Made by a program: the position numbers and the translations under genes. From positions 1-64,000 of the IMG/VR virus record IMGVR_UViG_3300046010_008569: DNA of 64,000 nt; one strand, 5' to 3'. A model generated the notes under the pieces. The model had not been told where the DNA came from. It did not search any database and saw only the letters and a program-made list of their open reading frames with translations. This DNA is from a virus. Below, piece after piece: positions 35,544 through 45,226 of the stretch. Each line of letters begins with the position of its first letter. The first letter of the stretch is position 1.

Positions 35544-36191
35544 TTAAAGGCTGTTCTTTCCGCCGCTTAGCTGGCTCACTCGCTCTTTAATCTGCTCCAT
35601 GACCTCTTCTGAGGTGGCTGCGGCTCGCTCTGCGGCCTTGCCTTCAGCGACAGCCACGGCCCTATGTTCGCTCAGCGCTTTGAGCGCGGCGATCCTAGCG
35701 GCGGCTGAATTGTTGGGGTCGGCGGCTTCTGCTTCTAATCGTTTAACGATAAAGTTGTCCAGCCGGGAGGCGGTGTGTGACACATCACCCTCCTCCTGAT
35801 CAAGCCTCGTGATAATGCTGCTACGTACATCTGGCTTCTTCGCCAGGGCGTTAGCCCTGGAATACATACGCTCATAAGACATCACCTCAACGACCTGTTC
35901 CCGGTCATCAATGATCTGGACCGCATAGCAGAGCTCAGGGAAGCTCTGCTTGTATGCCTCCACTAGGCTGGCCCCTGATGCGACTAGCTCAGCGAAGCTA
36001 TTCTCCTGTTCTGTCAGCCTATCACTGGCGCCTTCAGCGATGGCCTCTTTGGCCATTCGCTTGAACATGGCGATCTTATTCTGGTTGGTTGGAGTGGTGG
36101 AGCCTTTCTTCTTTCCTCCCTTACCCTGAGACTCAAGCTCTCTCTTACGAGAGAGCAGGTCTATGATCTTGTCTTTGTCTGGGGTGTCCAT
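35544..36191 (-). CDS. Terminase small subunit-like protein, 215 aa
   Basis: The middle of the protein follows the Terminase_2/TerS pattern: LTEQENSFAELVASGASLVE-AYKQSF (helix-turn-helix entry), then SRANALAKKPDVRSSIITRL, the usual 'a.kLlkkpdV...i' segment, and ARIAALKALSEHRAVAVAEG near the end. A basic linker (GKGGKKKGSTTP) lies at residues 23-34. TerS recognises packaging sites and regulates TerL. It lies 5.7 kb upstream of terL on the same strand rather than beside it, and its promoter would have to lie in the gap 36192-36300. Family call is by pattern only. Confidence 0.6.
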   Translation of the reverse strand: MDTPDKDKIIDLLSRKRELESQGKGGKKKGSTTPTNQNKIAMFKRMAKEAIAEGASDRLTEQENSFAELVASGASLVEAYKQSFPELCYAVQIIDDREQVVEVMSYERMYSRANALAKKPDVRSSIITRLDQEEGDVSHTASRLDNFIVKRLEAEAADPNNSAAARIAALKALSEHRAVAVAEGKAAERAAATSEEVMEQIKERVSQLSGGKNSL

Positions 36192-36288
36192 GTGTATTGT
36201 CTTTTGTGGCGCCGGGGAGGTCTCCCGGCTTGGGAAGGGTTCGGGCGGTTAGGTTGATGACATTGCTATTTGTCACTGGAAAACATCA

Positions 36289-36333
36289 TTACGAATTTGT
36301 AATTTGACTTTTGCATCATACCCATGCTATAAT
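36289..36333 (+). promoter_or_regulatory. Strong sigma70-type promoter P2 with operator
   Basis: -35 TTGACT (36304-36309), 18-bp spacer, perfect -10 TATAAT (36328-36333). The palindrome TTAC-GAATTT-GTAA (36289-36302) ends one base before the -35, as in P1, so the same protein may bind both. P2 drives the 8.4-kb early operon. Confidence 0.85.
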
Positions 36334-36339
36334 GCCTGC

Positions 36340-36613
36340 ATAGTCTAAATGCGTCTGGACAGCCCGCTCTATTCTGGGCCACCACTAGAGGCATATAGTC
36401 TATCTGGGCATGGGGTTAAACCCAGCCCATGGTCAATGAGAAACCAGCGCTAGCTGGTGTATCAAAGACCGAAGGTCTTTGACATCGTGATCCCCTAGCT
36501 GCCCGGCCTTGACCCCGCGAGTTGACGCGTTGGCTATAGGGCAGCATTGCTGCGACGGGAGGGAGCTTAGGTCATCAAGCCTAACCCCTCCCGGCGCCTT
36601 TCTGTGTGCCATG
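36340..36613 (+). ncRNA. Long structured 5' leader of the early operon
   Basis: No gene is visible between P2 and the first element. Hairpins follow one another: GCCC-GCTCTATTCT-GGGC; ACCAGC-GCTA-GCTGGT; the perfect CAAAGACC-GAA-GGTCTTTG; CTGCCC/GGGCAG enclosing CGCG-AGTTGA-CGCG; and CGGGAGGG-AGC-TTAGG / CCTAA-C-CCCTCCCG just before the first copy of the repeated element. The direct repeat ATAGTCTA occurs near the 5' end and 40 nt later. Such folding may protect mRNA or sense a ligand or protein; none is identified. Confidence 0.5.
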
Positions 36614-36664
36614 CTAAGCCCTCGCTGAGGGTTTAGCGGGGCATACAGCCCCAAAGGGTCTAAC
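36614..36664 (+). promoter_or_regulatory. Early leader element copy 1
   Basis: Hairpin A CTAAGCCCTC-GCT-GAGGGTTTAG (36614-36636), hairpin B GGGGC-ATACA-GCCCC (36638-36652), then AAAGGGTCTAAC and ATG. Confidence 0.75.
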
Positions 36665-36892
36665 ATGACATACGAATACCCAAAGCCACAACACGTCCGT
36701 ATGGGTTGCAAGGTTCACTGGAACTACTATCAAACCAGTGAAGACGCCCAAAAGGCTGCCGAGATGGCAGCTATAGAGGCGGCTGATCTGGAGAAGCAAG
36801 GATTCGATTGGGGCTATCAAAGCCCTGGCCATATCCGCCTGCCGACAGAGCAAGACTTCCACCCAGGCTTTTATGAGGTCTGTATCCCCTAA
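36665..36892 (+). CDS. Small early protein, 75 aa
   Basis: First gene of the P2 operon. The 75-residue protein (MTYEYPKPQHVRMGCKVHWN; EMAAIEAADLEKQGFDWGYQ) has a helix flanked by aromatic strands and resembles no family I can name. Its ATG sits 3 nt after the AAAGGGTCT box. As an immediate-early product it may act on host functions. Confidence 0.75.
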   Translation: MTYEYPKPQHVRMGCKVHWNYYQTSEDAQKAAEMAAIEAADLEKQGFDWGYQSPGHIRLPTEQDFHPGFYEVCIP

Positions 36893-36895
36893 GCA

Positions 36896-36967
36896 TTGCC
36901 TTGAGGGGCCGGAGCGATCCGGCCCTGATAGCCAGCGCTTAGAAGCTGGATAAAGAAAGGGTCTAAC
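36896..36967 (+). promoter_or_regulatory. Early leader element copy 2
   Basis: Hairpin A GGGCCGG-AGCGAT-CCGGCCC (36906-36925), hairpin B CCAGC-GCTTAGAA-GCTGG (36932-36949), then AAAGGGTCTAAC, ATG. The loop GCTTAG is complementary to CTAAGC at the upstream stop codon. Confidence 0.8.
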
Positions 36968-37354
36968 ATGCAAAACCTTGAACAACTGATTGCAGCCGGC
37001 ATCACCCTCCCTGTCCGCCTTTCCAAGGCGGAACATGGGCCTTTGATTAAGAAGGCCTTTGAAGAGGGTAGCCTGATGCGGCAGGTTCAAATGCGAGACA
37101 AGCCGAACCAAGTTCACGGTCCTGGATTGTATCGCGGCCCTGATGGTCCCTGTGCTATTGGGGCTGTCATTCCTGAGGCTCTCGGCCGATGGATTGATGC
37201 AGGGAATGCTGACAGAAACTACTCCGTTGGGAATCTTGAGGGTGTGATTGATTGCGGTGCAGACCGTGATTGGTTCAACCAAGTTCAGTCAGCCCATGAC
37301 GGAGGGACTGAAATCTCTATGAGAAGGCTTGAGAATCTTCTCTCTGAGGTATAA
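36968..37354 (+). CDS. Early protein, YRGP-GPC family member 1, 128 aa
   Basis: The protein shares with the next gene the motif Y-R-G-P-x-G-P-C-x-I-G (here LYRGPDGPCAIGAVI) and a later WFNQVQSAHDG (next gene: WFVALQEAHDG), so the two are diverged paralogues. The paired Cys, Trp and His-Asp residues look functional, perhaps a small enzyme or binding fold, but no family is recognised. Confidence 0.75.
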   Translation: MQNLEQLIAAGITLPVRLSKAEHGPLIKKAFEEGSLMRQVQMRDKPNQVHGPGLYRGPDGPCAIGAVIPEALGRWIDAGNADRNYSVGNLEGVIDCGADRDWFNQVQSAHDGGTEISMRRLENLLSEV

Positions 37355-37368
37355 GCGATAGTCTCATT

Positions 37369-37464
37369 TATGGCCTTGGTGCGTAGCGCCAGGGCCATAG
37401 GTCGGGCGATTGTGAATGCAATTACTCGCTGCATTTTTCAGATGCAGAACTAAAGGGTCTAACT
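37369..37464 (+). promoter_or_regulatory. Early leader element copy 3 (extended)
   Basis: Hairpin A TATGGCCTTGG-TGCGTAGCG-CCAGGGCCATA (37369-37399), a middle stem CGGGCGATTG-TGAATG-CAATTACTCG, then CTGCAT-TTTTCAG-ATGCAG (37429-37447), AAAGGGTCTAACT, ATG. One stem more than usual. Confidence 0.7.
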
Positions 37465-37869
37465 ATGATTAAGCATTGGACTAAAGCTGAAGCTCTCCCG
37501 ATCCTCCAAGAGGCGTTTCGGAACAATTCTTTAGCTGCCCAGCAAGGGGCTCATACTTGCCAGTACCGAGGCCCCTACGGGCCGTGCATCATCGGTGTCC
37601 TGATTGATGACGAAACAGCCGCTAAATGGGACGTTTGGACTGAGTTTGGTGACAGCTTCTCTATTGCCCCAGTGTTCAACGACAAGAGGCATCACGCCTC
37701 CGCTAAGATGATTGAGGAGGTCGAGGCCGCTTTTGGTGGTCCTGACGCTCAATGGTTTGTGGCGCTACAAGAAGCTCATGACGGCTGGGCTACCAGTAAC
37801 GAATACCATCGGGAATGGGATGGCGGAACATACCGTCAGACCATCACCAAGCTACTAGAACTAAGCTGA
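37465..37869 (+). CDS. Early protein, YRGP-GPC family member 2, 134 aa
   Basis: Diverged paralogue of the preceding protein: QYRGPYGPCIIGVLI and WFVALQEAHDGWATS align with its motifs. It is acidic overall. Tandem duplication within the early operon, each copy with its own leader element, is the simplest history. Function unknown. Confidence 0.75.
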   Translation: MIKHWTKAEALPILQEAFRNNSLAAQQGAHTCQYRGPYGPCIIGVLIDDETAAKWDVWTEFGDSFSIAPVFNDKRHHASAKMIEEVEAAFGGPDAQWFVALQEAHDGWATSNEYHREWDGGTYRQTITKLLELS

Positions 37870-37877
37870 GCTCAGCT

Positions 37878-37943
37878 AGAGCATCCGGCCTTCGGGTCGG
37901 GTGCTTCATGGTGCGCTTAGTACCGATAAGAAAGGGTCTGACT
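37878..37943 (+). promoter_or_regulatory. Early leader element copy 4
   Basis: Hairpin A AGCATCCGGCC-TTCG-GGTCGGGTGCT (37880-37905, two G-T pairs), hairpin B GGTGC-GCTTA-GTACC (37910-37924), AAAGGGTCTGACT, ATG. Loop GCTTA is complementary to TAAGC just before the upstream stop. Confidence 0.8.
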
Positions 37944-38156
37944 ATGAAAATATTCCACCACCTACGTTTCGGCTTAAAAGGCTGTCTCGCTAGTGGCGAG
38001 GCGTTCACTGTGAAGGCAACTTCGACAACCGGCGAGGTTGTTGAGGGCGGTCTAGCGACCGTGGACGATTACGGCATCGTGGTAGGCAGTATCGGCCAGC
38101 AAGCACAAATGCAATGGCACGATATGATACGGCTCGAAATCGAAGAGCAATTCTGA
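37944..38156 (+). CDS. Small early protein, 70 aa
   Basis: The ATG at 37944 follows the AAAGGGTCT box; an earlier in-frame ATG at 37815 would lie inside the previous gene. The 70-residue product is beta-rich (FTVKATSTTGEVVEGGLATV, YGIVVGSIGQQAQMQWHDM) and could be an SH3- or OB-like barrel. No family recognised. Confidence 0.75.
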   Translation: MKIFHHLRFGLKGCLASGEAFTVKATSTTGEVVEGGLATVDDYGIVVGSIGQQAQMQWHDMIRLEIEEQF

Positions 38157-38164
38157 GTCCAGCT

Positions 38165-38229
38165 AGAGCGTCCAGGCCTGTCCTGGGCGCTTCATGGTGC
38201 ATTCAGCGCCTGAAAGAGAAGGGTCTACT
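38165..38229 (+). promoter_or_regulatory. Early leader element copy 5
   Basis: Hairpin A AGCGTCCAGG-CCTGT-CCTGGGCGCT (38167-38191), hairpin B GGTGC-ATTCA-GCGCC (38196-38210), AGAAGGGTCTACT, ATG. Loop ATTCA pairs (one G-U) with TGAGT at the upstream stop. Confidence 0.8.
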
Positions 38230-38349
38230 ATGAAAATCAAAATCCATAAGGGATGGACTGTCGATCTCGACTACTTGCTGGCAACCAGCGATGGTTGCTA
38301 TCGATGCTACGACATCGGCCCATTCCAATTCATGTTTGAGGTTCTGTGA
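38230..38349 (+). CDS. Tiny early protein, 39 aa
   Basis: A 39-codon frame (MKIKIHKGWTVDLDYLLATS, then Cys-rich GCYRCYDIG) follows a full leader element, which is the main reason to accept it. The CYRC motif suggests metal binding or a disulfide. Its TGA overlaps the next ATG. Confidence 0.65.
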   Translation: MKIKIHKGWTVDLDYLLATSDGCYRCYDIGPFQFMFEVL

Positions 38350-38468
38350 TGGAATACTTCACCAACCTCAATGTCACTGACAGGTTCCTGCTTGTCATTG
38401 GTGTCTGCTTTCTTGTTCTGGCTGTGTATATGGTCTTGGACTTGATAGGAGATACACTGAGAGAGTGA
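38349..38468 (+). CDS. Tiny membrane protein, 39 aa
   Basis: A 39-residue protein with one clear transmembrane helix (FLLVIGVCFLVLAVYMVLDL), coupled to the previous gene by an ATGA overlap. Inner-membrane location is expected. Function unknown; small early membrane proteins of phages can block superinfection or depolarise the membrane. Confidence 0.6.
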   Translation: MEYFTNLNVTDRFLLVIGVCFLVLAVYMVLDLIGDTLRE

Positions 38469-38469
38469 G

Positions 38470-38541
38470 AGTCTCAGGGTCAGCACATCCGGTGGGTGTG
38501 CTGATTCTCGGGCGCTCAGCCCGATTTGGAAAGGGTCTAAA
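38470..38541 (+). promoter_or_regulatory. Early leader element copy 6
   Basis: Hairpin A TCAGCACA/TGTGCTGA (38480-38504), hairpin B TCGGGC-GCTCA-GCCCGA (38508-38524), AAAGGGTCTAAA, ATG. Third sub-type, with GTCTCAG upstream and TCTCGGGC in stem B, shared with copies 7 and 8. Confidence 0.8.
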
Positions 38542-38964
38542 ATGAAACATGACGCAATGGCAGAAGTGCCTCATGCGGTCGTTAACGCTCAGGGTTGGCT
38601 CACGTCAATCTTGGAGATGGTCGAGGCGCTGGAACGCTCGGAAGAGCAGGCAGTGCATGGGCCAGACGAAACGGATGCAGTGCGGTCCAGGATTGAAGAA
38701 TCAGTCCTGTCTGTGCTTGTCCGCGATGGCTGGCGGCTACCAGGAGTAATAATCACTCCTGGCGCTGAAGAGTACGAAATCCTCCTGACTACCGGAGGGC
38801 CAGCGCTTCGCATCACTGGCAAGCTCAACGAGCACAACGAGCCCGATGACTTCCCGCGGCTTGAGTATCAGGACTGGTACCAACCATGGACTGAGTACAC
38901 TGACGCGAGAGAGCATCGGGAGGCTTTGCAGCGCTTTGCTTCCTGCTTCTACTATGGAGATTGA
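38542..38964 (+). CDS. Early acidic protein, 140 aa
   Basis: An acidic 140-residue protein. The N-terminal half is helical (EVPHAVVNAQGWLTSILEMV), and the middle has VRDGWRLPGVIITPGAEEYE-ILLTTGGPALRITG, a beta hairpin region, with an aromatic end (YQDWYQPWTEYTDAREHREA). I have seen related sequences in phage early regions but know no function. Confidence 0.75.
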   Translation: MKHDAMAEVPHAVVNAQGWLTSILEMVEALERSEEQAVHGPDETDAVRSRIEESVLSVLVRDGWRLPGVIITPGAEEYEILLTTGGPALRITGKLNEHNEPDDFPRLEYQDWYQPWTEYTDAREHREALQRFASCFYYGD

Positions 38965-38965
38965 T

Positions 38966-39055
38966 ATGATAAAAAAACCAACGCTTCTGGAGATAAGCTT
39001 ACTTGCAGCAACGATCATAGTGTTTCTTATCACTGTGGTTGCTCTGTTTGGTTGA
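38966..39055 (+). CDS. Tiny membrane protein, 29 aa
   Basis: ATG 38966 follows the upstream stop by one base, with GGAG six bases before it. The 29-residue product is one transmembrane helix (LLEISLLAATIIVFLITVVA). Another single-helix protein, like that at 38349-38468. Confidence 0.5.
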   Translation: MIKKPTLLEISLLAATIIVFLITVVALFG

Positions 39056-39060
39056 TAGTC

Positions 39061-39157
39061 TCAGTGAGGCGCCATCCAGGTTGTCGCTGCGCTCCATGCG
39101 CTGCGCTTCTCGGGTGGCGCTGATCTCGGGCGATCATGCTCGGCAAAGGGTCTAACA
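39061..39157 (+). promoter_or_regulatory. Early leader element copy 7
   Basis: A long first stem GCGCCATCC/GGGTGGCGC (39069-39120, with a GC-rich inner hairpin), hairpin B CGGGC-GATCAT-GCTCG (39127-39142), CAAAGGGTCTAACA, ATG. Confidence 0.75.
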
Positions 39158-39337
39158 ATGAAACGGTACTTGTTATTCACCTACCAGATTTATTACCCGT
39201 CAGGTGGGTGGAACGATTTCAAAGGCAGCTTCGATGATATCGAAGAAGCTAGAGGAGTCTGGACTAACGATCCATACAGAGATGATCGCTGTCAAGTGAT
39301 TGACCGCGATACTGGACAGATAGTCTGGAAGGACTGA
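39158..39337 (+). CDS. Small early protein, 59 aa
   Basis: A 59-codon frame accepted because a leader element precedes it. The product (MKRYLLFTYQIYYPSGGWND; FDDIEEARGVW; CQVIDRDTGQIVWKD) has the strand-helix-strand pattern of small beta-alpha proteins that phages encode in early regions ('Y..y.p.gG..D..g.f...eeA'). Function unknown. Confidence 0.7.
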   Translation: MKRYLLFTYQIYYPSGGWNDFKGSFDDIEEARGVWTNDPYRDDRCQVIDRDTGQIVWKD

Positions 39338-39339
39338 GC

Positions 39340-39411
39340 GTCTCAGTTGCTAGCGTCCGGTCTGGCGCTAGCTTCTCGGGCGATCACCGCTCGATTACGA
39401 AGGGTCTGACT
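39340..39411 (+). promoter_or_regulatory. Early leader element copy 8
   Basis: Hairpin A GCTAGCG/CGCTAGC (39349-39372), hairpin B CGGGC-GATCACC-GCTCG (39377-39393), GAAGGGTCTGACT, ATG. Confidence 0.8.
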
Positions 39412-39642
39412 ATGAGCATGAACGAAAAGAGAGCCATGTGGGCTCATGACGCCGTGGAGCGCTTCCGTGAAGTGTGCCCTGGTAGCAAGAACAAAGATGG
39501 CTCAATCGAAATGAGCGAGGCCATCGGAGACTTGCTGGTTAATCTATTTCACCTCTGCGATCTAGAGGATATTGACGCAGCCGGAGCCGCTAAGCGCGCG
39601 CTTGCAATGTATCGAGATGAGGTGGAAAACCCCGACTTCTGA
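39412..39642 (+). CDS. Small early protein, 76 aa
   Basis: A 76-residue helical protein (NEKRAMWAHDAVERFREVCP; IGDLLVNLFHLCDLEDIDAA; AKRALAMYRDEVENPDF). The pattern 'DLLvdL.H..d...idfd.al..A...Y..E' is one I recall from small phage or plasmid proteins, without known role. The following stop overlaps sequence complementary to the next loop B. Confidence 0.75.
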   Translation: MSMNEKRAMWAHDAVERFREVCPGSKNKDGSIEMSEAIGDLLVNLFHLCDLEDIDAAGAAKRALAMYRDEVENPDF

Positions 39643-39647
39643 GAACT

Positions 39648-39723
39648 GCCCTGAGAGCCCGGCCTAACAGCCGGGCTTGATGGCCAGCGCTTAGCTGGAT
39701 GATATTAAAGAAAGGGTCTAAGA
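39648..39723 (+). promoter_or_regulatory. Early leader element copy 9
   Basis: Hairpin A AGCCCGGC-CTAACA-GCCGGGCT (39656-39677), hairpin B CCAGC-GCTTA-GCTGG (39684-39698), GAAAGGGTCTAAGA, ATG. Represents the commonest sub-type (TTGAT-GG-CCAGC). Confidence 0.85.
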
Positions 39724-39921
39724 ATGAAAACCAAGTATCTTGCGGAGCGAAAGCTCGCAATAGCGGAAGATGCGTTGTTCCAATTACTCCTAGCATACGC
39801 AAAGGGTGAGCGGAATGGCGGCTCAATTGATTGGGAAGATGTGGATATCGCGTTTGAAACCGCGAAAGAAGCCATGCCCGATGCATACGCTGACATCGTA
39901 AAAGAACTGGAGACAGAATGA
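39724..39921 (+). CDS. Small early protein, paralogue of 40464 product, 65 aa
   Basis: The segment ALFQLLLAYAKGERNGGSID-WEDVDIAFETAKEAMPDAYA aligns with ALIQLLLTYAKAEETRDVEW-SDVDLAVEYAKEALPGEY in the gene at 40464, so the two are paralogues; this copy lacks the other's C-terminal extension. Acidic and helical. Function unknown. Confidence 0.75.
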   Translation: MKTKYLAERKLAIAEDALFQLLLAYAKGERNGGSIDWEDVDIAFETAKEAMPDAYADIVKELETE

Positions 39922-40172
39922 GTAGTTTTTCACCGCATATCTGGGACCACTGCCTGGCGCAAATGCCGGCCACGTTCCGCGCTCGGGAGCTTCTACAGAG
40001 CTACCGTGATCTTGAAGATTTGTACTGGCATCGCGCTGGCGCTTGGGTGGCTTCGCTCTTCTCAAAGAAGGCTAAGCTACACTGGCGCCAGACATGCTTG
40101 CGGATCATCGAGAAACGAACCGAGATTCGTCAACTGGGAGGCATCGTGCCTCCGTTTTGGAGTATCGCATAA
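39918..40172 (+). CDS. Small early basic protein, 84 aa
   Basis: An 84-residue basic, helical protein (ARELLQSYRDLEDLYWHRAG; WRQTCLRIIEKRTEIRQLGG), coupled to its upstream gene by an ATGA overlap and to the next by TAATG. No family recognised. Its basic charge contrasts with the acidic neighbours, so a complex between them is conceivable. Confidence 0.7.
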   Translation: MSSFSPHIWDHCLAQMPATFRARELLQSYRDLEDLYWHRAGAWVASLFSKKAKLHWRQTCLRIIEKRTEIRQLGGIVPPFWSIA

Positions 40173-40384
40173 TGGCAACATTTCAAGATCGATTTCACAA
40201 GATCATCAAACAAGCTAAGCGAGAAGCGGAGCGTGACGGCTCCGCTGTGGCGATCCTAAACCTCAACCAGATCGGATCGCCAATGCTCGTCATTCGTCCG
40301 CGCGAATGGAGTGACAGTCATGATTGTGTGGCGCAAGTCCATGCTGACGGGACAGTCACCGAAACAGGAAGGATGAGAAACTAA
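40172..40384 (+). CDS. Small early protein, 70 aa
   Basis: The ATG at 40172 shares its A with the upstream TAA; an earlier in-frame ATG at 40094 lies inside the previous gene. The 70-residue product has a basic helix (FHKIIKQAKREAERDGSAVA) then strands (NLNQIGSPMLVIRPREW). Unknown function. Confidence 0.7.
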   Translation: MATFQDRFHKIIKQAKREAERDGSAVAILNLNQIGSPMLVIRPREWSDSHDCVAQVHADGTVTETGRMRN

Positions 40385-40391
40385 CATAGCA

Positions 40392-40463
40392 TTGCACTGA
40401 GAGCATCGGCCTATGGCCGGTGCTCGATGTCCAGCGCTATGCTGGGAACTGAAAGGGTCTACC
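40392..40463 (+). promoter_or_regulatory. Early leader element copy 10
   Basis: Hairpin A GAGCATCGGCC-TAT-GGCCGGTGCTC (40401-40425), hairpin B CCAGC-GCTAT-GCTGG (40431-40445), GAAAGGGTCTACC, then GTG as start. Loop GCTAT is complementary to ATAGC after the upstream stop. Confidence 0.85.
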
Positions 40464-40814
40464 GTGAATACAGAACTTGCAAAACAAGCGCTCATTCAAC
40501 TCTTACTGACTTATGCCAAGGCAGAAGAGACGCGAGACGTTGAATGGTCTGACGTGGACTTGGCGGTCGAATACGCCAAGGAAGCGTTGCCGGGTGAATA
40601 CGAGCGCATCCTGGATGAACTCCAGTTTGACGACACTCAGGAACGTATCCGCGCGCAATTCAAGACAGATATCGAGCCGCTGGTTATTGAGCAGTACGGG
40701 GCTGACGACGAAGTCGCCCTGAACGAAGAGTTCAACAACTGGACAGACTCGCTCTGCAAAGACGGCATAATCTCCGATTATGTCTACAACAACATCACTC
40801 GAACTGACGACTGA
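40464..40814 (+). CDS. Acidic early protein, 116 aa, GTG start
   Basis: The GTG at 40464 stands exactly where the other elements place ATG, so it is taken as start rather than an in-frame ATG at 40413. Residues 1-55 are paralogous to the product of 39724. The C-terminal extension (VIEQYGADDEVALNEEFNNW) is strongly acidic, which gives a DNA-mimic-like charge. Function unknown. Confidence 0.75.
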   Translation: MNTELAKQALIQLLLTYAKAEETRDVEWSDVDLAVEYAKEALPGEYERILDELQFDDTQERIRAQFKTDIEPLVIEQYGADDEVALNEEFNNWTDSLCKDGIISDYVYNNITRTDD

Positions 40815-40816
40815 GA

Positions 40817-40890
40817 ACTGCCATGAGAGCCCAGGCGCAAGCTTGGGCTCGATTGCCAGTGCTTAGCGCTGGAATACGAAAGGGTCTACT
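40817..40890 (+). promoter_or_regulatory. Early leader element copy 11
   Basis: Hairpin A GAGCCCAGGC-GCAA-GCTTGGGCTC (40827-40850), hairpin B CCAGTGC-TTA-GCGCTGG (40856-40872), GAAAGGGTCTACT, ATG. Confidence 0.85.
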
Positions 40891-41502
40891 ATGCATGAAG
40901 TTTACAAAGTCGAGTACCGCGGATGCGTGATCAAAGCTTACTATGATCAAGACGCATCACACACTAACCCAATCGATAAGATGAAGTACGACGACACCTT
41001 CATCTGGGCCGTGTGGGAACGTAACTCGATCTTCAGCGACCGGGATTATCGACCGGTTGATGATCCGTCAGAGATGCCGGACTGGGCAGAAGAGAACGGG
41101 TACGAGTTATTCCCGCTCTTCAAGTACGAGCACAGTGGCGTTGCTTACAGCATCGCCCCTTTCTCGTGCCGATGGGACTCAGGTCAAGTCGGTTATCTGG
41201 CCATCAAAAAATCGGCATTCACTTCACCAGAGGCGAAGCCATTGCAAGAATATGCCGAACAGTTCGTTAAGACTGCCGGTGCTTGGTGTAATGGTGAAGT
41301 CTACGGATACACTGCATACACCGAAGACGGAGAAGATATCGACTCTTGCTGGGGCTTCATCGGAGACGATGGCTACTCATGGCGCAATGAAGACTGCTAC
41401 ATGATCCAGCAAGCCAAGGAGAATATCGACTACTACCTGAAAGAACAGGCAGAGATTCCGTACAAGTACCAAGAAGACGCTGACGCGGCCATGAACGGCT
41501 AG
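40891..41502 (+). CDS. Conserved-type early phage protein, 203 aa
   Basis: A 203-residue acidic protein. The start (MHEVYKVEYRGCVIKAYYDQ), the middle (CRWDSGQVGYLAIKK) and CNGEVYGYTAYTEDGEDIDS-CWGF are patterns I recall from uncharacterised proteins of many phages and plasmids ('D.g.vGyi', 'nGevyGy.....dgeeidScwGf'). No enzymatic motif is clear. It is the largest product of the early operon. Confidence 0.8.
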   Translation: MHEVYKVEYRGCVIKAYYDQDASHTNPIDKMKYDDTFIWAVWERNSIFSDRDYRPVDDPSEMPDWAEENGYELFPLFKYEHSGVAYSIAPFSCRWDSGQVGYLAIKKSAFTSPEAKPLQEYAEQFVKTAGAWCNGEVYGYTAYTEDGEDIDSCWGFIGDDGYSWRNEDCYMIQQAKENIDYYLKEQAEIPYKYQEDADAAMNG

Positions 41503-41511
41503 AATGCAACT

Positions 41512-41579
41512 AGAGCCCATCGGCACAAGCCGGTGGGCTTCATGATGCAGTCAAAGCATCACACTGAAAGGGTCTAACT
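41512..41579 (+). promoter_or_regulatory. Early leader element copy 12
   Basis: Hairpin A AGCCCATCGGC-ACAA-GCCGGTGGGCT (41514-41539), hairpin B TGATGC-AGTCAAA-GCATCA (41543-41561), GAAAGGGTCTAACT, ATG. Confidence 0.85.
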
Positions 41580-41741
41580 ATGAAAGCCTTCAAAACAAAA
41601 CACTTCGCTGCTTCATGGCAGCGCGGTGTTCTTTTGTTTGCGCTTGGCCAGCTGTCTCCGGATGATCTACCCGCTGAAAAGCGGGAGCTTATCCGAGGAA
41701 TAGCTAACTGGGCGTTAAGTCATGGAAGGAATATCAAATGA
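41580..41741 (+). CDS. Small early protein, 53 aa
   Basis: A 53-codon frame directly after a leader element: MKAFKTKHFAASWQRGVLLF followed by a polar helix (DDLPAEKRELIRGIANWALS). One amphipathic or hydrophobic stretch near residue 15-25. Its stop overlaps the next ATG. Confidence 0.65.
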   Translation: MKAFKTKHFAASWQRGVLLFALGQLSPDDLPAEKRELIRGIANWALSHGRNIK

Positions 41742-41899
41742 AAGAATACGTCATCACGCTTCGGCGTGACCGGGGCGGTAAGATCAGCGTCCTGACAACA
41801 GCATCTTCTTTGGCGCAAGCCATTAAGCAGGTGTGCGATTTCGAGTTTGCACCTGAGAGTGCAGTTATTGAAACCAAGTTGATCAGGGAGCTTTTCTAA
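41738..41899 (+). CDS. Small early protein, 53 aa
   Basis: A 53-codon frame with ATGA overlap to its upstream gene and TAATG to the next. Pattern strand-strand-helix-strand (MKEYVITLRRDRGGKISVLT; SLAQAIKQVCDFE), typical of small beta-alpha proteins. Unknown function. Confidence 0.65.
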   Translation: MKEYVITLRRDRGGKISVLTTASSLAQAIKQVCDFEFAPESAVIETKLIRELF

Positions 41900-42459
41900 T
41901 GGCTAAGCTAAACATTTGGGAAACGCCAGATTCTTACGCTGGCTTCAACCCTGTCGGACACATCCTAGTTGCGGCTAAACACCGTGACTCGGATTGTTTG
42001 ACACGCTCCAACTGGATCATTTCCTGCCAGCGAATCGCTAAAGTTGCTGGCGTCGAGGCGCTTCCAGACCTGGCCGACCTCTATGAAGGCGGCTGGCCAT
42101 CAGGGAGGCGTCTTAATCCGGAGGAAATGCCGGCCGCATACACGTTCTCAGCATCACACTGCTTAGTGGGCTGGGTAGAATACATGCTTGTTCGCAATGA
42201 CGCTCCAGAGGTTGTTATCGCTGAAGCGCAAGCTATTGCGGATGAAATTAGCAACTACCCGGCCCTCAACGAGGACCACTGGAGCGAAATGGAGTGGGAA
42301 GAGGCCCAAGAATACTGGGCCGGAATGTCTCTCCGAGATAGACTCGATATCATTACTGATAGTCGTGGTGAGCGCGCTTGCTCAATCTTCGCTATCAGGC
42401 GGGATTACATTCCGCAAGATGATAACGGCTTCATCTTTGAAAGACTGACACGACCATAA
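41899..42459 (+). CDS. Conserved-type acidic early protein, 186 aa
   Basis: The protein starts MAKLNIWETPDSYAGFNPVG and has a segment ISNYPALNEDHWSEMEWEEA-QEYW followed by MSLRDRLDII. The pattern 'dYPvLdEedyse.E.E...ywa..sl..R' is widespread in uncharacterised phage proteins. Strongly acidic with many Trp. It is third in a coupled trio behind element 12. Confidence 0.8.
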   Translation: MAKLNIWETPDSYAGFNPVGHILVAAKHRDSDCLTRSNWIISCQRIAKVAGVEALPDLADLYEGGWPSGRRLNPEEMPAAYTFSASHCLVGWVEYMLVRNDAPEVVIAEAQAIADEISNYPALNEDHWSEMEWEEAQEYWAGMSLRDRLDIITDSRGERACSIFAIRRDYIPQDDNGFIFERLTRP

Positions 42460-42465
42460 TGAGTG

Positions 42466-42537
42466 TTGCCTTGATAGGGCGGGAGAAATCCCGCCCTTGA
42501 TAGCCAGCAATCAAGCTGGATCACTAGGGTCTAAACT
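42466..42537 (+). promoter_or_regulatory. Early leader element copy 13
   Basis: Hairpin A GGGCGGGA-GAAA-TCCCGCCC (42477-42496), hairpin B CCAGC-AATCAA-GCTGG (42504-42519), CTAGGGTCTAAACT, ATG. Here GCAA at loop B can pair with TTGC after the upstream stop. Confidence 0.85.
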
Positions 42538-42948
42538 ATGAAATACATTGCAATCTATCTGGACTGCTGCTTGTCCAGCTATTTCCAAGGTTTTAATGGG
42601 CCGGTACTTAATGTGCCGGTTGATAGTGAAACCACCTACGGCGAGCTTTGCGGCGCGCTGACGGCGGAATTGCAAGTCTACGACAGCACTTACTACGAAG
42701 CGACGCTGAACATCGACACGTTCGACTGGGAGGAGGCTGAGAAGGCTATCATCCAGTTGTTCTCCGGCGTTGGTGTTGACGAGAAGGTTGCTGAAGCTCG
42801 CTACGCAGAACGGTATCGGCCGGTTGAGGACTGGATTCAGGCTGTTGCCTCCAGAATGACAACCATGAGCTACGACGATTGGAAGGAAGCCTGCGCGGAA
42901 GATGCAGAGTCCTGCTACTTCTACATCGGCTTCCGTAAAGCTGAGTGA
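42538..42948 (+). CDS. Acidic early protein, 136 aa
   Basis: A 136-residue acidic protein, strand-rich at the start (MKYIAIYLDCCLSSYFQGFN) and helical later (DWEEAEKAIIQLFSGVGVDE; DDWKEACAEDAESCYFYIGF). No recognised family. Preceded by a full leader element and followed by the most complex one. Confidence 0.75.
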   Translation: MKYIAIYLDCCLSSYFQGFNGPVLNVPVDSETTYGELCGALTAELQVYDSTYYEATLNIDTFDWEEAEKAIIQLFSGVGVDEKVAEARYAERYRPVEDWIQAVASRMTTMSYDDWKEACAEDAESCYFYIGFRKAE

Positions 42949-42950
42949 CA

Positions 42951-43063
42951 ATTGCGGTGAGAGCTAGGGCTTCGGCCCTAGCTTGATCCCCAGCGGTCAC
43001 GCTGGAATAGAAGCCGCGAGAGCGGCGTATGTGAGCCGAAAGGCGAGCATGAAAGGGTCTACT
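42951..43063 (+). promoter_or_regulatory. Early leader element copy 14 (with two extra hairpins)
   Basis: Hairpin A AGCTAGGGC-TTCG-GCCCTAGCT (42962-42983), hairpin B CCAGC-GGTCAC-GCTGG (42990-43005), then GCCGC-GAGA-GCGGC (43013-43026) and GCC-GAAA-GGC (43035-43044) before GAAAGGGTCTACT. Loop GTCAC is complementary to GTGAC at the upstream stop. The insert includes CGTATGTGAGC, also found before 34582 and 50848. Confidence 0.8.
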
Positions 43064-43411
43064 ATGCACGAGAGTTTAGAAGAGGCGTCTAAAGCTGCCG
43101 CTGTATGTGAGGATATAGATGACGCCCTGCGCATCATCTATGATTACACAGGCATCGATGATGGCGCCTTTGGCTATGACTTTGTTGAGGGTCTTCGCGT
43201 TAGCGGTGATACGACATGGTCCGAGCTATCGCAAACAGAGCGCGATTTTGAAATCAACCATGCTGCTGCAATCGAAGTGGAAGCTATGGTAGCGTACAAG
43301 TTTCCTGTTATCGGTGACTTGAATGCTATTCGCATAGCTGCTCGCTCCGGCTACCAAGTTCCTGTTGCGTACCGATTAGCGACAGAGATGCAGCAAAGAA
43401 TGGGAAAATGA
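43064..43411 (+). CDS. Small early protein, 115 aa
   Basis: The ATG at 43064 follows the AAAGGGTCT box, and is preferred to an in-frame ATG at 42983. The 115-residue product is acidic and helical (SKAAAVCEDIDDALRIIYDY; IEVEAMVAYKFPVIGDLNAI). No family recognised. Confidence 0.7.
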   Translation: MHESLEEASKAAAVCEDIDDALRIIYDYTGIDDGAFGYDFVEGLRVSGDTTWSELSQTERDFEINHAAAIEVEAMVAYKFPVIGDLNAIRIAARSGYQVPVAYRLATEMQQRMGK

Positions 43412-43414
43412 GTG

Positions 43415-43488
43415 TTGCCCTGAGAGCCCGGTGAAAGCCGGGCTTGATGGCCAGCAATCAAACGCTGGAAATAGAGAAAGGGTCTATT
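43415..43488 (+). promoter_or_regulatory. Early leader element copy 15
   Basis: Hairpin A GCCCGGT-GAAA-GCCGGGC (43426-43443), hairpin B CCAGC-AATCAAAC-GCTGG (43451-43468), GAAAGGGTCTATT, ATG. Upstream GTGTTGCC is shared with copy 13. Confidence 0.85.
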
Positions 43489-43713
43489 ATGGACAATCAC
43501 ACAATTATTGGTGAGCAGACCGACATTCAAGAAGCGGTCGATCTCATCGCCGCACTGCACAAGCTTGTCGAGGTTGCAAAAGAGGCTACAGGTGAGGACT
43601 TTCCGGTACTCTACGTCGAAACGGAAGAAGGCATCGTCACGGGTGCGAAGCTTATCAAAAAAGAGCTTAGCGACGGCTCGTTCAGCTACGATATCGAACT
43701 CACCTACGACTAG
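43489..43713 (+). CDS. Small early protein, paralogue of 44500 product, 74 aa
   Basis: ATG 43489 follows the leader box. The segment HKLVEVAKEATGEDFPVLYV ... KLIKKELSDGSFSYDIEL aligns with LKLIETAKAASEDDPFPVIY ... KLVKRELSDGSHVFDIIL in the protein at 44500, so they are paralogues about half identical. Strand-helix architecture, acidic. Function unknown. Confidence 0.75.
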   Translation: MDNHTIIGEQTDIQEAVDLIAALHKLVEVAKEATGEDFPVLYVETEEGIVTGAKLIKKELSDGSFSYDIELTYD

Positions 43714-43825
43714 TAGTCATCCGCTTTGCCGTATATGCGGCTTTGCAAAAGGCGGCATCGGTTCGTGGAATGGGCAGCAATGCAAGTGCGGCCACTATGA
43801 GCCGCCAATCCAAATGATTGACTGA
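43712..43825 (+). other. Zinc-ribbon-like reading frame without own start
   Basis: Just past the stop of the 74-aa gene, the +1-shifted frame encodes LCRICGFAKGGIGSWNGQQC-KCGHYEPP and a stop at 43825. Cys spacing fits a zinc ribbon, yet no ATG/GTG/TTG starts this frame nearby. It may be reached by frameshift, be a decayed gene, or be chance. Confidence 0.25.
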
Positions 43826-43843
43826 ATTTCCACTGCCTTTGAG

Positions 43844-43916
43844 CGTTGCGGTGAGAGCTAGGCTTCGGCCTAGCTCAATCCCCAGCGGTCACGCTGGGCT
43901 ATGAAAGGGTCTCTAA
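43844..43916 (+). promoter_or_regulatory. Early leader element copy 16
   Basis: Hairpin A GAGCTAGGC-TTCG-GCCTAGCTC (43855-43876), hairpin B CCCAGC-GGTCAC-GCTGGG (43881-43898), GAAAGGGTCTCTAA, ATG. Near twin of copy 14 without its insert. Confidence 0.85.
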
Positions 43917-44171
43917 ATGATTAAACGACCAAGAATGTATGAGGGTTTGCCTATCGACGCGAGAGCGTCGATTGACGCGGCCTTTGAAGACCTTACCAAA
44001 GGTTTGCGAGGAATGAATTACGGCACAGACAACTGCGACCACGCTGAACACCTGATCGACGCTATGACGGAGTATTTCCTGTATTCCAACCCGGCGTTTC
44101 GATCTGTAGTCTACGCAGCCGCTTGCCACTACGAGGCAACCGGCGAATACGCGGAGGGCTGCGGAGGATGA
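43917..44171 (+). CDS. Small early protein, 84 aa
   Basis: An 84-residue helical protein (DARASIDAAFEDLTKGLRGM; HAEHLIDAMTEYFLYSNPAF) with a Cys at NCDHAE and CHYEA and a GCGG tail. No recognised family. First of a coupled trio; ATGA overlap with the next gene. Confidence 0.7.
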   Translation: MIKRPRMYEGLPIDARASIDAAFEDLTKGLRGMNYGTDNCDHAEHLIDAMTEYFLYSNPAFRSVVYAAACHYEATGEYAEGCGG

Positions 44172-44503
44172 GGATCGGCGTTGACACTGTACGCATCAAA
44201 GCGGTGCTGGCTCCGGAGGGGCCAGCGTCGCTATCCATAGGCCGCGGTCGCGTGGCAGAGCGAGGCCCTCAAGGCCTCACCCTCAAGCTGCATGACAAGC
44301 CGATCTTCAGGTACGATGGTAAAAGCATCGTGCTCGATCTGTGCGGCATGTGGACCCCCTCGACCACCAAAGCTATGCGCGAGTATGGTGATGCTGTCGG
44401 GGTGGCGATCAAACCATCGCTGGCCAAGGGGCGGTTTACCGCAAGCTACCGCGGCACTGTCCACGAGGCTAACTTCAACAACACAATAAGGATTGAAATA
44501 TGA
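44168..44503 (+). CDS. Basic early protein, 111 aa
   Basis: The start at 44168 overlaps the upstream stop and has GGAGG immediately before; an in-frame ATG at 44123 is inside the previous gene. The 111-residue product is basic and beta-rich (MRIGVDTVRIKAVLAPEGPA; FRYDGKSIVLDLCGMWTPST). Pattern suggests a small barrel. Unknown. Confidence 0.7.
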   Translation: MRIGVDTVRIKAVLAPEGPASLSIGRGRVAERGPQGLTLKLHDKPIFRYDGKSIVLDLCGMWTPSTTKAMREYGDAVGVAIKPSLAKGRFTASYRGTVHEANFNNTIRIEI

Positions 44504-44724
44504 CTCAAGTCATAGAAGAAATCGGAGACAATCACGAAGCCACTGACCTCTCCGCCACGCTGCTTAAGTTGATTGAAACAGCGAAGGCGGCGAGCGAGGA
44601 CGATCCATTCCCGGTCATTTACGTCGAGGATAGAGATGGAACGCGCTTCACAACGGCTAAACTCGTGAAGCGAGAACTTTCAGACGGCTCTCACGTATTC
44701 GATATCATACTGAGCGACGAATAG
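44500..44724 (+). CDS. Small early protein, paralogue of 43489 product, 74 aa
   Basis: Last gene of the early operon. Paralogue of the product at 43489 (see there): both have FPV(I/L)YVE and KRELSDGS or KKELSDGS. It lacks a leader element of its own and is coupled to its upstream gene by ATGA. Followed after 22 nt by the operon terminator. Confidence 0.75.
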   Translation: MTQVIEEIGDNHEATDLSATLLKLIETAKAASEDDPFPVIYVEDRDGTRFTTAKLVKRELSDGSHVFDIILSDE

Positions 44725-44746
44725 GGGATCACGCCACGCTAAGATT

Positions 44747-44784
44747 AAGGGCGGTCAGGAGAAATCCTGCCGCCCTTTTTCTTT
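44747..44784 (+). terminator. Rho-independent terminator of the early operon
   Basis: AAGGGCGGTCAGGA-GAAA-TCCTGCCGCCCTT: 14-bp stem with one mismatch and a GNRA loop, then TTTCTTT. It ends the plus-strand early operon; the minus-strand genes end just beyond it, at 44787, so it may also slow leftward transcripts. Confidence 0.9.
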
Positions 44785-44786
44785 GC

Positions 44787-44984
44787 CTATTCTTTTTGTT
44801 GCCTGTTGTCGAAATAACCGAAACCCCAGGGTGGAAGAGGTTCTTCCTTCAGGAACTCTTCTTCATAGACCTCGATGGGGATCAATTCAAACTCAGGGGG
44901 ATCGCCACGAAGCCTTGCGGCTTTCTCTTCCTCCAGGCGCTTAAGGCCGGCGTTGATGGCTTCTGCGTCGTCTGCTAGTTTCAT
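44787..44984 (-). CDS. Small acidic protein, 65 aa
   Basis: Last gene of the leftward middle unit. Acidic and helical (ADDAEAINAGLKRLEEEKAA; ELIPIEVYEEEFLKEEPLPP). Its start shares a base with the upstream stop. Unknown function. Confidence 0.6.
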   Translation of the reverse strand: MKLADDAEAINAGLKRLEEEKAARLRGDPPEFELIPIEVYEEEFLKEEPLPPWGFGYFDNRQQKE

Positions 44985-45226
44985 TAGATTAACTCTCGTT
45001 TTGGCGCCGGCAGGGCTAGCCTTGCGGCTGCCGCTGGCGGCTGGGGGTCGGGCTCTTTCTGGACAACTCCGAACTTCAAAAGCCTCAGTTCTGTGAAAGC
45101 TGTCAACAGGGTGTTGATCTGCTCATTCGGCTCCTGGCCTTTGTACCAGGTGTAGCCGCATTCCTTAGCGATCCGCTCAATCGAATCCACTATTTCGCGC
45201 TGGCTTGTGCTGTCGATCTTCTTCAC
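44984..45226 (-). CDS. Small unknown protein, 80 aa
   Basis: An 80-residue product with a helical N-terminal half (TSQREIVDSIERIAKECGYT-WYKG) and a Pro/Ala-rich end. The 'ECGYTWY' piece could be a surface loop. 4-nt overlap with the preceding gene. Confidence 0.6.
   Translation of the reverse strand: MKKIDSTSQREIVDSIERIAKECGYTWYKGQEPNEQINTLLTAFTELRLLKFGVVQKEPDPQPPAAAARLALPAPKRELI

Follow-up and report, generated by a model that had tools for sequence, protein, structure and literature searches.

The closest described systems are the start-associated sequences (SAS) and extended start-associated sequences (ESAS) of cluster K and the ribonuclease III (RNase III) sites of the T7 early operon. 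T7 carries structured RNA with an internal loop between its early genes and has an RNase III site before the first of them as well; we know of no competing downstream hairpin at these sites. R1.1, an RNase III site of the T7 early region, is given as a 60-nt RNA with an internal loop in the accessible text of its description (PMC6121014). In cluster K, a short repeat with a Shine-Dalgarno core stands right before many small non-structural genes, mostly in one orientation. ESAS are 17-bp inverted repeats, for which the available portions of two reports see little support as RNA hairpins and a more likely role in binding DNA-binding proteins (PMC3203893, PMC12699233). Here we describe sixteen copies of a structured RNA leader in an operon of small open reading frames (ORFs) at 36665-44724 (+ strand) of IMG/VR virus record IMGVR_UViG_3300046010_008569; the window analysed comprises bases 1-64000 of this 70142-base record.

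Each leader reads, from 5′ to 3′, X1 (12 nt), a hairpin P2, X3 (12 nt), a loop, X4 (5 nt), a spacer of mostly ~7 nt and the start site. X1 consists of segments e′ d′ c′ b′ a′ and X3 of segments a b c d e. Pairing of X1 with X3 through e, c and a can give helix P1, and with P2, which has at least 8 pairs and differs in sequence between leaders, P1 makes up a duplex of ~20-25 positions with internal loops. In the other fold, the b-c-d part of X3 can pair with X4 to form helix P3, which usually ends ~19 nt before the start codon. Because P1 and P3 both use the letters of segment c, they are mutually exclusive. The start site after P3 is AAAGGGTCTAAC-ATG, with GAAAGG as the Shine-Dalgarno sequence. 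The window has 17 copies of AAGGGTCT where 1.7 are expected, and 15 of them belong to the + strand of the operon, every one shortly before a start codon; the sixteenth leader start (42538) carries the variant TAGGGTCT. The leaders thus resemble the cluster K repeats in position and orientation, in retaining letters beyond those needed for ribosomal RNA pairing and in having extra structure upstream. They differ in their shared letters, AAAGGGTCTAAC (AAGGGTCT at 15/16 starts) as opposed to the 13-bp SAS GGGATAGGAGCCC that lies a few bases from start codons, and, relative to ESAS, in that P1 and P3 show RNA covariation and a single strand serves two partners.

A leader is present at all 16 gene starts that are separated from the preceding gene, and at no others. 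The eight sure starts lacking one (38349, 38966, 39918, 40172, 41738, 41899, 44168 and 44500) all overlap or directly adjoin the preceding gene, and the doubtful ORF at 43715 is likewise leaderless. The operon therefore consists of 16 cassettes of 1-3 genes. X1 starts at the upstream stop codon in 10/15 leaders and lies 1, 3, 4 and 4 nt off in four more; in E23 the distance is 17 nt. Leader E1, ahead of gene 1, pairs CTGTGTGCCATG with CGGGGCATACAG in P1 and GGGGC with GCCCC in P3 where there is no upstream cistron, so the module needs no upstream stop codon.

Covariation was assessed in an alignment of the 15 leaders E2-E23; E1, whose register was found later by the structure scan described below, is absent from the covariation, energy, accessibility and leader-likeness counts. 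In P1, 88.9% of cells are paired (64.7 in shuffles) and 32 have changed on both sides (11.1 in shuffles), and the covariation score of 0.663, against 0.235 shuffled, was reached by 0/500 shuffles. The corresponding values for P3 are 98.7% (74.7), 14 (4.4) and 0.648 against 0.191, again reached by 0/500 shuffles. Sliding the partners out of register lowers pairing to 25-48% for P1 and 13-43% for P3. Both-side changes include UGAG/CUCA, UGAC/GUCA, UGAU/AUCA, AUAG/CUAU and CGAU/AUUG in e′/e and CC/GG, GG/CC, CU/AG, AG/CU, AC/GU and CA/UG in a′/a, and the P3 core varies among CAG/CUG, GGG/CCC, GUG/CGC and AUG/CAU. Since the registers had been set by hand, the P1 test was repeated on ten leaders whose register is fixed by the stop codon, where 82/90 pairs form and 0/5000 shuffles score as high; helix e alone is weaker in these ten (78/5000). 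Within the CAG class of 8 leaders, helices a and e together form 45/48 pairs, with 1/5000 shuffles as high. Over P1 and P3, G-U pairs number 26 and A-C pairs 1, which fits the + strand RNA, and neither DNA nor the other strand.

A scan that uses no sequence letters, requiring only P2, P1 and an overlapping P3, gave 13 matches on the + strand of the operon, all of them leaders (13/16; E3, E9 and E16 were missed). The rest of the 64 kb gave 4 matches on the + strand and 3 on the − strand, none of the latter in the operon. Among 20 block shuffles of the operon, 19 had no match and one had a single match; 185 other loci gave 71 matches in 3.72 Mb of strand, with no locus reaching three within 8.1 kb. 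Built from the CAG class alone, a covariance model also recovers the TCT/GGG class (E7, E9 and E10; table), with weak scores for E4 (E 0.11) and E16; E1 was not found by this model. The leader family is almost certainly a real RNA structure, and the two exclusive folds are probably a selected feature. Forced into the P1 or the P3 state, 12/15 leaders have computed energies within 2 kcal/mol of each other.

The operon is present as the sequence-only reading had described it: 25 small ORFs encoding 29-203 residues, one of them (43715-43825) doubtful, mostly acidic (computed isoelectric point (pI) below 7 for 18/25 products) and set between one promoter and one terminator. The promoter, which has an extended −10 element, is the sole strong sigma70-like match in 36000-45200. 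Five further promoter-like matches in this interval each agree at 9/12 positions, and the total of 6 compares with a shuffled expectation of 5.8; internal promoters were rejected because their number is no higher than in shuffles. The terminator, seen in both sequence and fold, was missed by a simple terminator scan because that scan allows no bulge. Promoter and E1 are separated by a non-coding leader of ~270 bases (36334-36601, +) that contains several inverted repeats.

A possible reading, and the one we place first, is that the leaders separate cistrons after transcription by processing or insulation, perhaps through RNase III-type cutting as in T7. One host-type promoter would give one long transcript, which 16 RNA leaders would divide into 16 cassettes. 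P1-P2 would form first, since X1, P2 and X3 are transcribed before X4, and the duplex would serve as a recognition or cutting site for a double-strand nuclease of the RNase III type, or for another RNA binder. With X1 cut away or covered, X3 would be freed to fold into P3; each downstream message would then carry a small hairpin at its 5′ end, followed by an open start site, and a hairpin would stay near the end of the upstream message. In this way cassettes would be expressed independently and could be gained or lost without a new promoter. We rank processing first because a leader also precedes gene 1, because the duplex is like the T7 sites and because P3 is sensible once X1 is removed. P1-P2 has the long intercistronic duplex with an internal loop expected of a T7-type site; the operon differs from T7 in that the leader recurs sixteen times, each time linked to a shared start site, and cutting here is a prediction.

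Several points weigh against this account. Processing is read here out of sequence and computed folds, and Sinorhizobium RNase III, in the accessible text of PMC6121014, requires longer duplexes than its E. coli counterpart and cleaves R1.1 in an atypical manner. Free folding with flanks of ~30 nt (upstream) and 45 nt (downstream) gives a P3 probability above 0.9 in 10/15 leaders and a P1 probability above 0.75 in 4/15, E9 being mixed; since P3 is mostly favoured, P1 may be short-lived without cutting. All covariation comes from copies within a single genome, and their relatedness inflates the shuffle test; for E3, E14 and E16 the register was picked by eye. Most leaders have mismatches in P1; E4, E5 and E16 pair at 2/3 positions in helix c and 0/2 in helix a, and E16 at 2/4 in helix e.

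A translation-coupled switch, which we consider unlikely though the nearest competitor, would have the ribosome that ends the upstream gene cover X1, so that P1 opens and P3 forms, signalling to the downstream cassette that its upstream neighbour has been translated. A terminating ribosome covers about 12 nt downstream, the length of X1, and X1 stands at or within 4 nt of the upstream stop in all but one of the 15 leaders. Masking X1, in imitation of a ribosome positioned at the stop codon, raises the computed mean P3 probability from 0.70 to 0.94. However, P1 and P3 are retained in E1, which has no upstream cistron, and in E23, which lies 17 nt past the nearest stop, and the start site hardly responds: mean computed openness of the ribosome site is 0.61 free and 0.62 with X1 masked, and that of the AUG goes from 0.66 to 0.58. 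This constancy argues against the usual coupling by an occluded start and favours some other act; Shine-Dalgarno occlusion is not supported as the mode of coupling. Some folds pair X1 with the start site, an option that was rejected because, by eye, the letters allow it in only ~4-5/15 leaders.

Somewhat less likely again is a protein-binding site, at which a phage or host translational repressor, an activator or an antitermination complex would read one fold or the shared AAAGGGTCT letters. GGGTCT is retained in 16/16 leaders, exceeding what Shine-Dalgarno pairing needs, and leaders of the CAG class repeatedly show an internal loop of the form UGA/GAU. The SAS repeats of cluster K have likewise been proposed, in the available part of that report, as possible sites for an unknown product (PMC3203893). 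Against such a binder, no candidate protein has emerged, and the sequence of P2 varies between leaders.

It is improbable that the leaders are DNA-level repeats, whether recombination sites for cassette shuffling or ESAS-like DNA-protein sites. Such repeats would suit the placement of leaders at cassette borders and the duplication seen in three paralogue pairs (below), but the 26 G-U pairs against 1 A-C, the single orientation, the fairly fixed distance to the start codon and the unconserved P2 sequence all speak against them. Nor are the leaders of paralogues clearly more alike: those of 36968/37465 share 13/29 letters, below the all-pair mean of 16.6, and those of 39724/40464 share 21/29, somewhat above it, while neighbouring leaders are only slightly more alike than in random order (P ~0.07). 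The sequence-only reading had each cassette moving with its own leader. A leader does head each of the 16 cassettes; movement with it finds no backing, as 44500 is leaderless, the 36968/37465 leaders are less alike than average and no related operon was found in which such movement could be seen. Least probable of all are ordinary intergenic hairpins spread by copying one leader without a selected switch, which would fit the finding of all copies in one genome and in related classes but not the both-side changes in helices e, c, a and P3 or the a and e pairing within the CAG class alone.

The leaders can also be set against the small-gene regions of other phages. Repeats head many cassettes in the region of relatives of the 40891 product in four alphaproteobacterial phages, Mesorhizobium phage Cp1R7A-A1, Ruegeria phage RpAliso, Sphingobium phage Lacusarx and Erythrobacter phage L02, where 10/26, 12/23, 8/25 and 10/14 of the annotated starts examined, respectively, share a 10-mer within 150 bases upstream. 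As in the present operon, many small-gene cassettes there are headed by a repeated start-associated sequence; the repeats look like a promoter (e.g. CTTGACGAATC) plus a ribosome site, one promoter-like repeat per cassette, whereas the operon here has one promoter and RNA leaders. Rhodobacter phage RcSalem, taken for its relative of the 40464 product, has no such cassette repeat. Repeated cassette heads are thus a wider habit, and structured RNA in that role is the unusual feature of this operon. Separately, IMGVR_UViG_2974763294_000001, which also encodes a relative of the 40891 product, has ACTTGACATCGAACG-type repeats at 13 places, several just before ORFs.

The leader may belong to a new class of phage RNA elements: two-state leaders whose shared strand pairs either in an upstream helix around a hairpin or in a hairpin beside the ribosome site, here copied 16 times as the standard head of cassettes in an operon with one promoter. 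Should both folds prove real, this genome would offer 16 naturally occurring versions of a single RNA switch, ready-made for probing and swap experiments. The arrangement would then show how a phage can enlarge an early operon by small genes with no further promoters, and would provide an RNA-level counterpart to the DNA repeats (SAS/ESAS and promoter repeats) of small-gene regions. The sequence-free structure scan is a simple handle for finding such operons.

Searches for relatives gave little. The operon has no megablast match in phages, a 1.7 kb piece of it no distant match in plasmids, the paralogue-pair alignments no relative in IMG/VR, and 37465 and 43489 no tblastn match in phages. A scan with the start-site pattern returned 41 stretches with one match each, and a scan with the P3 pattern 8 stretches; the former were rejected as leaders by the covariance model and the latter by the model or the fold. 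The best covariance-model scores outside the operon are weak (E 0.0046 and 0.016) and reflect start-site letters or a lone hairpin, and no convincing leader appeared in the other phage or virus loci searched. Rfam gave no match at the gathering score, only two weak ones (20.1 vs 35 and 18.9 vs 39 bits). With stricter filters, the leader was not found in 754 bacterial genomes (385 + 369, drawn from the classes of two metagenome-assembled genomes titled Rhodobacteraceae and Gammaproteobacteria), and the present genome as positive control gave 11 matches. Literature searches, in a collection that excludes most subscription papers, turned up no repeated switching RNA leader in phages among the results listed. 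The comparison of gene content across related phages that had been suggested found no related operon. Absence elsewhere may reflect sparse sampling, since the near phage relatives are two contig fragments, with terminases 100% and 82% identical, that end before the operon.

Table. Features of the small-gene operon and its leaders (window coordinates)
Feature	Position	Strand	Support or remark
Sigma70-like promoter, TTGACT-18-TATAAT, extended −10	36304..36333	+	11/12 match
Leader E1, before gene 1, no upstream cistron	36602..36664	+	P1 11/12 pairs, P3 5 bp
E1 parts: X1 CTGTGTGCCATG; P2; X3 CGGGGCATACAG; P3 GGGGC/GCCCC; then AAAGGGTCTAAC	X1 36602-36613; X3 36637-36648	+	
Gene 1, 75 aa	36665..36892	+	no assigned function
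Leader E2 (covariance model, structure scan); X1 36890-36901 (starts at gene 1 stop), X3 36930-36941, X4 36945-36949	36890..36967	+	
128 aa	36968..37354	+	paralogue of 37465
Leader E3, long variant; X1 37356, X3 37401, X4 37424	37352..37464	+	partial covariance-model match (E 1.4); missed by structure scan
134 aa	37465..37869	+	paralogue of 36968; phrog_38685
Leader E4	37867..37943	+	structure scan
70 aa	37944..38156	+	no assigned function
Leader E5	38154..38229	+	structure scan; covariance model E 0.003
Two 39-aa ORFs (38230, 38349), touching	38230..38468	+	one leader
Leader E7	38466..38541	+	covariance model E 3.5e-9; structure scan
ORFs of 140 and 29 aa (38542, 38966)	38542..39055	+	one leader
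Leader E9, long P2	39053..39157	+	covariance model E 1.5e-8; missed by structure scan
59 aa	39158..39337	+	phrog_1411
Leader E10	39335..39411	+	covariance model E 2.7e-5; structure scan
76 aa	39412..39642	+	phrog_3963
Leader E11	39640..39723	+	covariance model, structure scan
ORFs of 65, 84 and 70 aa (39724, 39918, 40172), overlapping	39724..40384	+	one leader; 39724 paralogue of 40464
Leader E14; e′/e ATAG/CTAT, changed on both sides	40386..40463	+	covariation, covariance model, structure scan
116 aa, GTG start	40464..40814	+	39724-like and phrog_336-like domains
Leader E15	40812..40890	+	covariance model, structure scan
203 aa	40891..41502	+	phrog_6186 family
Leader E16, most divergent; helix e 2/4	41500..41579	+	covariance model E 0.23; missed by structure scan
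ORFs of 53, 53 and 186 aa (41580, 41738, 41899)	41580..42459	+	one leader
Leader E19, TAGGGTCT variant	42460..42537	+	covariance model, structure scan
136 aa	42538..42948	+	no assigned function
Leader E20; ~40-base insertion (43006-43050), two extra hairpins between P3 and start site	42946..43063	+	covariance model, structure scan
115 aa	43064..43411	+	no assigned function
Leader E21	43409..43488	+	covariance model, structure scan
74 aa	43489..43713	+	paralogue of 44500
Leader E23; X1 17 nt past nearest stop	43840..43916	+	covariance model, structure scan
ORFs of 84, 111 and 74 aa (43917, 44168, 44500), overlapping	43917..44724	+	one leader; 44500 paralogue of 43489
Intrinsic terminator, bulged hairpin and T-run	~44747..44784	+	sequence and fold

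Phage genes elsewhere in the window encode a terminase, major head protein, primase/helicase, exonuclease, Erf-like protein and integrase; among the named-phage matches listed, the DSL-LC04 terminase is closest (44.5% identity). That hardly any operon product belongs to a known family agrees with our searches, in which 0/25 reach the curated Pfam cut-off and 6/25 match PHROGs at E ≤ 0.01, all six in families of unknown function. The three paralogue pairs proposed earlier stand out in all-against-all BLASTP within the 25 products, and growth by duplication is supported for them: 43489/44500 (54% identity, E 2e-18), 39724/40464 (51% over 51 aa, E 3e-14) and 36968/37465 (30%, E 4e-10), the next best pair having E 0.08. 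The 40464 product joins a 39724-like domain to an extra C-terminal domain matching phrog_336 and phrog_28306. The sequence-only reading also took the operon for a host-takeover locus with candidate anti-defence or host-inhibition proteins; its products carry no annotated function, and structure models made for two of them are too poor for a fold search, with predicted local distance difference test (pLDDT) values of 55 and 43.

The product of 40891-41502 belongs to a conserved family with the motifs WDSGQVG and DSCWG, many of whose members occur in alphaproteobacterial phages, near the genome ends of several and, in Lacusarx, near the record end. In the accessible text of its description, a terminal repeat region of ~10.5 kb is placed at that end of the Lacusarx record (PMC5648845). 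The operon is presumably transcribed early, which the location of these relatives near genome ends weakly supports. The doubtful frame at 43715-43825 (+), directly after the 43489 stop and in the +1 frame, spans 36 residues, contains four Cys, looks like a zinc ribbon and has no usable start codon; it is possibly a frameshift product, a gene with a non-standard start or a decayed gene.

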